Part shown: positions 88 to 16,721 of the stretch, piece by piece
Position numbering within the stretch: position 1 is the stretch's first letter
How the letters are laid out: the number at the start of each line of letters is the position of its first letter
DNA from: Candidatus Rifleibacterium amylolyticum
GTDB taxonomy: Bacteria > Muiribacteriota > Ozemobacteria > Ozemobacterales > Ozemobacteraceae
Assembly (NCBI GenBank): GCA_009917695.1
Contig: JAACJG010000005.1
Span: 124,001 to 188,000, forward strand
DNA length: 64,000 bases
Direction of reading: 5' to 3'
The notes under the pieces: model-generated
Told to the model about the DNA's origin: nothing
The model's database searches: none
Seen by the model: only the letters and a program-made list of their open reading frames with translations
Program-made: the position numbers and the translations under genes

Positions 88-122
88 CATTCTGCGCGGA
101 GCGAAGCGGAGTCGCAGAATCC
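88..122. repeat. REP-like palindrome, copy 1
   Basis: Short imperfect palindrome whose outer arms read CATTCTGCG and CGCAGAATCC, with AGCGAAGCGGAGT in the middle. A nearly identical copy lies at 24565-24599. Both copies sit next to the modular repeat DNA described at 211-505 and 24601-24845. No coding function is seen. Confidence 0.7.
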
Positions 123-210
123 ACGACTTCAACGAATTCTGGATCCTGTGACATCGCGCATGATGACGATTAAGAGAGTGCGGTTAACTCTATAGCCAGT
201 CTCCCGACTT

Positions 211-10780: not shown

Positions 10781-10952
10781 TAAAATCTTTCCTTCCCTTT
10801 TTTCAACTTTAATGCCTCAGAATATACCTAACAGGAGAGCGCAGCGTCAATTCAAAAAAGCCTGCGCAAAAATTGCACAGGCTAATTGCCCTGTACACCA
10901 CCGCAAAATTACTTAATCCAGATAAGCCGCGCTGCAAGCCGAGTTTAAAACA

Positions 10953-10968
10953 TGGCACGTTTAATGCA
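10953..10968 (+). promoter_or_regulatory. Sigma-54-type (-24/-12) promoter
   Basis: TGGCACGTTTAATGCA matches the sigma-54 consensus TGGCAC-N5-TTGCA at all but one position, with the invariant GG and GC separated by exactly 10 bases. The predicted transcript would start near 10979, just upstream of the AAAGGAGG ribosome site of the small gene at 11008. No sigma-54 activator gene is visible in the window. Confidence 0.65.
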
Positions 10969-11007
10969 TTATGTTGTCGTTCGAATTTTTATGAAAGGAG
11001 GAGTGTT

Positions 11008-11145
11008 ATGATGGACCTCAGCATACTGGTATTCTTTCAGCGCTGGCTTATCGACAGTGCTAAAGAAAACAACAATCATGGCATGTCTGATCGCAGAAAC
11101 GAGGGCTCCCTGAACGGGCACCCTCCTGATAACCGGGGCCGCTGA
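11008..11145 (+). CDS. 45-residue small protein under a sigma-54-type promoter
   Basis: A short gene with a complete unit around it: a -24/-12 promoter at 10953-10968, an optimal ribosome site AAAGGAGG 7 bases before tandem ATG codons, and a strong terminator at 11186-11230. The product begins MMDLSILVFFQRWLI, a short amphipathic or hydrophobic helix, and continues as a polar tail rich in Asn, Asp, Arg and Gly. It has no Cys and no recognised motif. The first 15 residues could associate with the membrane. It could also be an attenuator-type leader, but no plus-strand gene follows it, so a stand-alone small protein (or small RNA with a reading frame) is more likely. Function unknown. Confidence 0.6.
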   Translation: MMDLSILVFFQRWLIDSAKENNNHGMSDRRNEGSLNGHPPDNRGR

Positions 11146-11185
11146 TACGAGAGTTTCAGCCAAAGCCTGCAGTCCTGCTACAACC

Positions 11186-11230
11186 CGGGAGCCGAAGAGA
11201 AAAAAATCTCATCGGCTCCCGCTTTTATTC
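11186..11230 (+). terminator. Intrinsic terminator of the small gene
   Basis: Perfect 10-base stem CGGGAGCCGA (11186-11195) with TCGGCTCCCG (11212-11221), followed by CTTTTATTC. The loop contains a second small pairing (GAGA/TCTC). The T-run is on the plus-strand side, so it ends the transcript of the 11008 gene. It lies just past the 3' end of the convergent methyltransferase. Confidence 0.85.
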
Positions 11231-14411: not shown

Positions 14412-16721
14412 ATGTTTGCAAAAGTTATGCAACTGGCTCTTATTGTTACATTATGCATATTCTCCGCAGTCGCTCTTAAGCTGGCGACACCTAAGCTGGC
14501 GAATGGCGGCATAAACATCTTCTGGGTCGAAATTGCTTTTTTCGTCGTCACTTTTCTGATCTCGCGGCTGGTCAGAATGCTTTCTGGCAAACAGCATGCG
14601 ATGGTTCGCTCGCTCTATTTCGAGTATGTCTTGTCAATCACCTACTTTGTCTTCAGCTTATTTACCTTGTCTGTGTGGGCACATCTGAATTTTGTCATAC
14701 TCTTTGTCATGCTCTTTTTATGGCATTCAAAGGTGCTCAATGGCAACAACATACTGGTTTTCATATTGCTGGCTTCGTTCAACGCGATGGTGCGCTGGGA
14801 AAGACCATTGTATCTGCTTCTGGTAACACCTGCCGCCTATATGCTCTCACTTCTTCTCGGAGTCGCAATGAGTAACGGGCCTGCCAGCGCTCTGGCATTT
14901 CTTTTTCCAGATGACAATAAGGTTATGGATGAAAAAGAGCGCGAAAGCCATCTAAAGTGGTGGTATTTCCTGCTTAATATCAAGTTTTTCGTCGATGCAA
15001 ACTATGATATGAACCTCGAAGACGTTGAAGTCCGCAAGATCGAGAGGGCAGACCGCAACAGCATACATGATACCGCCTTTTTGCAGCTGCAGTCGCCGGC
15101 CATGCTTTCTGAATCGCTGTCGAAGATCAAACGCCGTGACGGCATGTTTTCTTATGACAAATTTCTCAAGCGTGCGAACACTGTATTCAGCAAAATTTAC
15201 AATGCCATGTACACTGGCAATATTGGAGAGATCGAGCATCTCGTCTCGGATGCTCTCTATGCGCAATTCAAATACAGGGTGAGCGAAGCCGGCAAATATA
15301 AGACCAGATTCATTTCGGTTGAGCTGTTGATCAATGATCTGCAGATTGCCCAGGTTAATCTCGACAACAACTTCGATGTTCTGCATCTGTTCGCCAGAGC
15401 CGTTTCACGCGATTACGAAGCCGGCCCGTCTGAAAAAGACCTGATCGCCGAAGATATCAAAGCTGACAAGAAAAAAATACTCAAAGAAAACGTCATCTGC
15501 GAGTATTGGAGCTTCATTCGCAAGCCCTCGGCAAAAACCCGTGACTGCCCTGGCCTGCTGGAAGGCCAGTGTCCGAACTGCGGCACCCCGATCACAATTG
15601 GGCAGGCAACTGTCTGCCCGAACTGCTCTTCATTCATCAGATCTGGCGAATACGACTGGGTTCTGACCAAAATCACTCCGGCCAGCGCCTGGGTCTATTC
15701 TGAACCTGCTTCTTTGCCAGGCTGGCAGGAAATTATTCAGACCGATCCGAACTTTTCGGCACAGCAGATCGAAGATCGCAGCACCAGCATTTTCTGGCTG
15801 CTGCGGAGCGCTGAAACATCGAAAAACATCAATGGCTTACGACGCTTTGCCACCGAAGAATACTGCAAAGCGCTGGCTTACGAAATCGAGAACGACAGTT
15901 TCGGCAGGTTTTCTTCGCTAGAGGCGGCGGCCTTCGATTCTGCTTCGATAAAGGGAATCAGCCTCGGGAAGGATCTCGATTTCTGCTACGTGTTGATCAT
16001 CTGGAACGCGGTGTTTGCCAACAAAAAATCGACTGCAGCCAAACGGCCGCTTCGTGACGTTCTGGTATTGTCAAGACCGCATAAAGCATCGACCAGAATC
16101 AACAACAGCCTCAGCAGCGTTCACTGTGCCAATTGCGGCGGCCCGCTGGCCTCTTCCTTTGAATCTACCTGTTCTTTCTGTGGCTCGCTGGTGAACGACG
16201 GCAGCGAATGGTTGCTGTGCCGTGTCATTAAAGAAAAGGAGCCCGAATACAGTAATCTGATGGAATCTAACGCTGCAAAGACCGCAAAGACTAAAGTTGC
16301 CGATCCCGCCGATATGCAGGTGTCTACCGAAGTTTCTTCAGCCAACGACGTAATCACCACAACGGCGCAGATATTAATGGCCGACGGAAAAGTCGATGAA
16401 AAAGAGATGGCGATGATCAAGACCATCGCAGCCAGATATTCAATGTCTGAAGAGTCTCTGCAAGGCATACTCGACGCCGTGCGCAACGGACAGGTCTTTG
16501 TTCCGGTGCCGGAAGCACAGTCACCGGCCGCGAAAAGACTGATTCGTGACGCTGCCAGAATGGCATTCGCCGATGAAGAACTCAGCGCCGATGAGAAAGA
16601 TGCCATCATGAACCTTGGTATGCAGCTTGGCTACTCGAAGCTTGATGTTCAGCAGGTTATCAATTCTGAACTGACCGCTCTTAAAAATAGATCTTCGCGG
16701 AATGATCAGGTTCGGGGTTGA
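14412..16721 (+). CDS. Membrane protein with Tim44-like, zinc-ribbon and TerB domains
   Basis: 769 residues with an unusual order: about five N-terminal membrane helices (1-165), a Tim44-like domain (about 243-350, FSYDKFLKRANTVFSKIYNA), a zinc ribbon (CPNCGTPI ... CPNCSSFI, about 393-415), a second Tim44-like segment (about 450-560), a second zinc ribbon (CANCGGPL ... CSFCGSLV, about 573-595), and a C-terminal TerB-like helical domain (about 640-765, with acidic DGKVDEKE and DEELSADEKD segments that could bind metal). Tim44-like domains bind lipid or membrane proteins, and TerB links to stress and metal responses. I infer a membrane-tethered scaffold or stress sensor. GGGTGAGAAG precedes the ATG. 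The next gene starts about 60 bases later in the same direction. Confidence 0.8.
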   Translation: MFAKVMQLALIVTLCIFSAVALKLATPKLANGGINIFWVEIAFFVVTFLISRLVRMLSGKQHAMVRSLYFEYVLSITYFVFSLFTLSVWAHLNFVILFVMLFLWHSKVLNGNNILVFILLASFNAMVRWERPLYLLLVTPAAYMLSLLLGVAMSNGPASALAFLFPDDNKVMDEKERESHLKWWYFLLNIKFFVDANYDMNLEDVEVRKIERADRNSIHDTAFLQLQSPAMLSESLSKIKRRDGMFSYDKFLKRANTVFSKIYNAMYTGNIGEIEHLVSDALYAQFKYRVSEAGKYKTRFISVELLINDLQIAQVNLDNNFDVLHLFARAVSRDYEAGPSEKDLIAEDIKADKKKILKENVICEYWSFIRKPSAKTRDCPGLLEGQCPNCGTPITIGQATVCPNCSSFIRSGEYDWVLTKITPASAWVYSEPASLPGWQEIIQTDPNFSAQQIEDRSTSIFWLLRSAETSKNINGLRRFATEEYCKALAYEIENDSFGRFSSLEAAAFDSASIKGISLGKDLDFCYVLIIWNAVFANKKSTAAKRPLRDVLVLSRPHKASTRINNSLSSVHCANCGGPLASSFESTCSFCGSLVNDGSEWLLCRVIKEKEPEYSNLMESNAAKTAKTKVADPADMQVSTEVSSANDVITTTAQILMADGKVDEKEMAMIKTIAARYSMSEESLQGILDAVRNGQVFVPVPEAQSPAAKRLIRDAARMAFADEELSADEKDAIMNLGMQLGYSKLDVQQVINSELTALKNRSSRNDQVRG

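Follow-up and report, generated by a model that had tools for sequence, protein, structure and literature searches.

A predicted stand-alone sigma-54-switched microprotein gene in a Candidatus Riflebacteria genome

Main

Why should a 45-codon open reading frame (ORF) carry its own -24/-12 promoter element and its own terminator when no gene follows it? We addressed this question at a locus within a 64-kb window (the whole stretch of DNA analysed, 64,000 nucleotides) of a Candidatus Riflebacteria MAG of 5.4 Mb. Genes transcribed with sigma-54 require an activator and are thereby tightly switched.

A self-contained unit

The original prediction had described a sigma-54-type unit for a 45-residue protein within 280 bases, and we found every part of it in place. 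The unit occupies positions 10953–11221 of the plus strand and comprises a near-consensus -24/-12 element, a ribosome site, a 45-codon ORF and a terminator. These features and a site upstream of them are listed here.

10863–10879, plus strand: activator-type palindrome TGCGCAAAAATTGCACA (motif TGYKCAANNNTTGMRCA) that precedes the -24 element by 90 bp
10953–10967, plus strand: sigma-54 -24/-12 promoter element TGGCACGTTTAATGC, GG/GC spacing 10 nt, predicted transcription start at about 10979
10994–11001, plus strand: Shine–Dalgarno sequence AAAGGAGG, with the ATG at 11008 lying 6 nt downstream
11008–11145, plus strand: 45-codon gene, product MMDLSILVFFQRWLIDSAKENNNHGMSDRRNEGSLNGHPPDNRGR, frame conserved family-wide
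11101–11127, plus strand: GAGGG...CCCTCCT segment in the ORF's 3′ part, with a local hairpin predicted and silent sites invariant
11186–11195 and 11212–11221, plus strand: intrinsic terminator, stem CGGGAGCCGA/TCGGCTCCCG, 10 bp with an inner GAGA/TCTC, then CTTTTATT

The promoter element is near-consensus as claimed, the ribosome site described as optimal is confirmed as AAAGGAGG, the ORF encodes 45 residues and the perfect ten-base terminator has all ten of its pairs. In the ribosome-site region GAAAGGAGGAGTG is invariant across 7 genomes, and in relatives the terminator stem is maintained by compensatory paired changes. The tandem ATG that had been pointed out is present as residues 1 and 2, but its second ATG is no special feature, because relatives have M, F or L at position 2. 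A minus-strand 'terminator' flagged at 10883–10859 was discarded; it overlaps the activator palindrome, which explains the flag better.

A short ORF of this kind might be a leader peptide, or an attenuator, for a gene that lies downstream, and plus-strand genes do occur within a few hundred bases of the unit in G002, G005, G008 and G007. In the window, however, the nearest downstream plus-strand gene starts at 14412, beyond a gap of 3 kb that contains two minus-strand genes; the terminator follows the ORF directly, and the neighbours vary between genera. The claims that no plus-strand gene follows and that the unit is not a normal leader therefore hold, and the layout contradicts a leader or attenuator, which we regard as highly improbable.

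Conservation of the encoded protein

We detected the 45-residue protein by profile search in 19 of the 24 family genomes (E ≤ 8e-7 after rebuilding), a count that depends on MAG completeness. Across the 40 phylum genomes there was no convincing copy outside the family, and among the 382 genomes searched, those outside the phylum (about 342) gave only 5 weak matches (E 0.0008–0.009), about the number expected by chance. Five family genomes have no detectable copy, G020 with its broken remnant among them: here (L173/L021 ~110–200, minus strand) the first tandem copy keeps its promoter, its ribosome site and its opening codons, after which similarity ends. A weak match elsewhere in the own genome (E 0.9) was taken as chance, and none of 75 pattern matches to possible viral relatives was confirmed.

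Six relatives, drawn from two genera, retain an intact frame; in all of them MMDLSILVFFQRWL is identical, and E32-G33 and H38-P39-P40 are fixed. Between genera only the first ~15–20 residues are common, with the N-terminal consensus M-x-D-x-S-I-L-V-F/W-F-Q-x-W-L, and protein length ranges from 24 to 53 residues. Between-genera differences at codon positions 1, 2 and 3 numbered 175, 96 and 319, and amino-acid identity was 0.60 in frame compared with 0.33 and 0.24 when the frame was shifted. The third-position excess and the frame-specific identity thus argue that selection acts on the encoded peptide.

The genomic surroundings are less constant. A divergent nucleoside phosphorylase adjoins the unit in genera g1, g8, g4 and g3 only, and a search for a conserved partner gene gave no neighbour that accompanies the unit in every genome. 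Since neighbours differ between genera, we consider the unit autonomous. Tandem microprotein pairs behind one promoter occur in G008, G014 and G015 (loci L088 4827–5110; L087 8500–8163, minus strand; L096 8694–8431, minus strand).

The peptide had no match in Pfam, NCBIfam, PHROGs or PADLOC, PDB sequences gave noise only (best E 0.35), and no description of the gene was found in the open-access literature. We regard the protein as a new family of predicted sigma-54-switched small unit.

Short ORFs were also seen in related settings. G006 (L130/L187 ~1501) has a sigma-54 unit with a perfect palindrome, TGCTCAATGTTTGAGCA, and a different ORF of 38 residues, which may be distantly related to the microprotein. 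Genus g11 has a 16-codon ORF (MTSDKNYRNYFVPVFA / MTSEKNYRNYFIPVLG), perhaps another microprotein or a leader, behind a -24/-12 element and a ribosome site (L136 from 1501; L164 from 101). The g11 5′ leader also carries an inverted repeat, TTGCATTA...TAATGCAA, immediately before the ribosome site (upstream of L092 8737, L093 3278 (minus) and L090 7870 (plus)).

Specificity of the sigma-54 promoter

By itself the -24/-12 match is weak evidence, because one-mismatch look-alikes are no commoner in the window than in shuffled sequence (21 found, 19.1 expected). The exact pattern TGGCACGN5TGC occurs 25 times genome-wide compared with 7 for the reversed control. The complete layout of -24/-12 element, AAAGGA and ATG has a single occurrence in the own genome, at the 45-codon gene, and 51 against 1 in the control across the 40 phylum genomes (one site counted twice). 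When relatives were searched for the same arrangement of promoter, gene and terminator, a correctly spaced -24/-12 element lay upstream of the microprotein gene in 17 of the 17 with upstream DNA, a count that leaves out G003, whose copy is cut by a contig end; the G020 remnant has one as well.

The own genome has one intact rpoN (PF04552 match, E 2.3e-59; open frame of 485 aa). We found no sigma-54 activator motif within the 64-kb window, consistent with the earlier proposal that the activator is located elsewhere.

Further consensus sigma-54 sites in the own genome (L032–L056; L133, L135, L147) precede Hsp20-like, thioredoxin, DUF2892-like, Spy-like, efflux and deacetylase-like genes, names assigned by eye from the sequences, and sites in relatives also precede PilC-like and prepilin-like genes. 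The genes behind these other sites suggest a putative stress-related sigma-54 regulon.

An upstream palindrome shared with other genes

We assembled the palindromic motif TGYKCAANNNTTGMRCA by eye on the g1 copies, having already seen some g3, g4 and g8 sequences, and tested it afterwards. It occurs once in the window (0.03 expected), at three sites in the 5.4-Mb own genome (0 in the reversed control) and at 35 sites across the phylum (4 in the control). Most other palindromes in relatives have no -24/-12 element downstream, and many are intragenic; these were not counted as regulon members. Relative to the -24 element, the palindrome lies at -89 to -91 in g1, g8 (G012), g3 (G007) and g6 (G010, G017), and elsewhere at -79 (G019), -106 (G011), -114 to -116 (g11) and -157 to -159 (g4). 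The putative activator site at -90 falls inside the 80–200 bp range of sigma-54 upstream activator sites. Shuffling gave p ≤ 0.01 in all genomes with a site except G021 (0.083). No palindrome was found upstream of the G014 microprotein gene, and in G009/G016 the best match abuts the promoter and is not credible. Together with the conserved frame, the promoter and the intact rpoN, the palindrome lends support to the view that the small protein is tightly controlled.

Could promoter, frame and terminator be a chance assembly of motifs without any gene? Single -24/-12 look-alikes are indeed frequent, but the promoter, frame, activator site and terminator are conserved across the family. This conservation refutes a chance origin, to which we assign virtually no probability.

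The three own-genome palindromes belong to the 45-codon gene, a pyruvate kinase gene and a second microprotein gene. The palindrome stands 7 bp before the -24/-12 site of the pyruvate kinase gene (L179 1501–1595; own genome C2:205435), as it likewise does in G005 (L210). In G012 a polysaccharide-deacetylase-like gene has both palindrome and -24/-12 element, and the same holds, more weakly, for the own genome.

The third palindrome, 191 bp before the -24/-12 site of this second short ORF in the own genome, leads to a microprotein of 34 residues, MQTQSQTKYQDYVMVRIDEKSKLQVWVKLPPSGK (L180 1501–1860; own genome C5:76544–76899). Relatives of this protein are present in 18 of the 40 phylum genomes, all 18 within the 24-genome family. 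Among the copies read, 12 have a -24/-12-like site upstream, and 10 of these have the palindrome within 240 bases (shuffle p ≤ 0.015), at variable distances. Because the motif was built on the first gene, the second provides a largely independent test of it.

NtrX recognizes CAAN2-5TTG (PMC9223101). The palindrome is likewise centred on CAAN3TTG, whereas it additionally conserves an outer TGYK/MRCA. We rejected NtrX as the activator, as only the core agrees; the resemblance in sequence may be only a lead.

Constraint on the RNA

We next compared silent changes in the ORF with those in the adjacent phosphorylase gene. Between G000 and G005, 1 of 35 conserved codons in the ORF had changed silently compared with 113 of 209 in the phosphorylase gene (Fisher 1.1e-9); the counts were 3/37 and 101/212 between G000 and G002, and 4/37 and 108/212 between G000 and G001. 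Silent sites of the ORF are thus almost frozen within the genus, indicating that the RNA sequence is constrained too. Codon bias is in our judgement an unlikely cause, because codon choice is mixed (ATA; TTC beside TTT). An overlapping antisense protein was rejected as a cause: G012 has a broken minus-strand frame, although most genomes keep it open.

This constraint bears on a dual-function RNA, a sigma-54 transcript that would base-pair with other mRNAs as well as encode the peptide. The free-standing, terminator-ended unit would suit such an RNA, and candidate pairing segments exist. CACCCTCCT (11119–11127) and AGGAGGAGTG do not vary among 7 genomes and are complementary apart from one bulge. 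CACCCTCCT resembles an anti-Shine–Dalgarno sequence through which other mRNAs might be bound; its complementarity to AGGAGG(A)GTG is a potential alternative pairing with the ribosome site. A predicted GAGGG/CCCTC hairpin near the stop codon is invariant in the seven genomes too, but the invariance of GAGGG/CCCTC and of CACCCTCCT cannot prove pairing. We saw no convincing covariation in the stems of the ORF, this hairpin included; clear covariation was confined to the terminator. Folding z-scores were modest, at about -1.4 to -2 once the terminator was excluded and -3.9 when it was included. The start region folds no more strongly than synonymous recodings in 22 copies, and we rejected sequestration of the Shine–Dalgarno sequence by such a fold. 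Outside g1 and g8 the 3′ part is not conserved, whereas the N terminus of the peptide is, and the window has no match in Rfam. The proposal of a regulatory RNA that encodes a peptide as well gains partial support from silent-site conservation within the genus, while covariation and the recoding test were negative, and we consider a dual-function RNA rather unlikely. Slightly less likely again is the fuller picture of a dual-function RNA in an uncultured phylum that would encode a helical microprotein and base-pair, within a small activator regulon in which pyruvate kinase, and so central carbon metabolism, would be joined to two lineage-specific microproteins.

Structure and probable action of the protein

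AlphaFold predicts, with moderate confidence, a helix at residues 5–23 (pLDDT ~84) and a disordered tail (~57), with a pTM of 0.35. Conserved residues D3, I6, L7, F10, W13 and L14 all lie on one face of the helix. Conservation follows the helical period for residues 3–15 (p 0.010), a relation that is not significant for residues 2–18 (p 0.22), and the tail is fast-changing.

A hydrophobic helix in a tiny protein, with tandem copies in some genomes, is reminiscent of the type I toxins reviewed in PMC8309996. The peptide would then be membrane-active, its mRNA silenced by internal pairing and possibly by an antisense RNA, and the short hydrophobic N terminus, the strong ribosome site, the tandem pairs in G008, G014 and G015 and a possible Shine–Dalgarno-sequestering segment would fit. 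Compared with those toxins, however, the peptide is near-neutral or acidic (in most members the first 20 residues have a net charge that is near zero or negative) and its hydrophobic stretch of ~8–12 residues, broken at positions 11–12, is in our judgement too short to span a membrane. Its hydrophobic moment is low, it matches no known family, and the recoding test gives no support to sequestration. No minus-strand promoter for an antisense RNA stood out above chance, with 4 promoter-like sites on both strands and 2.4 expected. We consider a type I toxin a distinctly poor prospect.

A stand-alone inducible microprotein gene driven by sigma-54 is probably the correct reading. The site, promoter, frame and terminator are evident from sequence and conservation, and we infer that they would be used as follows. 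An enhancer-binding activator encoded elsewhere would bind the palindrome at 10863–10879 and open sigma-54 RNA polymerase at 10953–10967; a transcript of ~245 nt would be made and ended by its own terminator, and the strong ribosome site would direct translation of the 45-residue protein. Shared sites suggest that the same activator probably also turns on the second microprotein, pyruvate kinase and the polysaccharide-deacetylase-like gene. The microprotein would be a small regulator, produced when a particular stress or nutrient state prevails. Its most likely mode of action is to dock on a partner protein or membrane surface through the conserved face of its helix, since the D3/I6/L7/F10/W13/L14 face is what evolution keeps fixed. 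In our judgement the hydrophobic stretch could not reach across a membrane, and we therefore favour a docking regulator.

Discussion

The sigma-54-dependent regulatory RNAs Qrr, GlmY and CrcZ are short and free-standing, with an upstream activator site and their own terminator. The 45-residue unit is likewise a short, free-standing predicted sigma-54 transcript with an activator-type site and its own terminator, whereas the product conserved across genera here is a peptide. Among dual-function RNAs is SR1/SR1P of Bacillus subtilis. Another is VcdRP of Vibrio cholerae, with a 29-aa protein (PMC8672173). Our unit resembles both in combining a small predicted transcript, a conserved short protein and a constrained RNA sequence, and differs in its predicted sigma-54 control; comparison in sequence, made through family libraries, gave no match. 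By analogy, the unit may operate as other small units switched by sigma-54 do, and perhaps as dual-function RNAs do.

Gene callers easily overlook ORFs of ~45 codons. Here the combined signature of promoter and activator site found two lineage-specific microproteins that share one putative switch in nearly a whole uncultured family, and the shared sites provide a short target list for the regulator. The result suggests that -24/-12 sites and short ORFs, taken together, may uncover microprotein regulons that have stayed hidden elsewhere.
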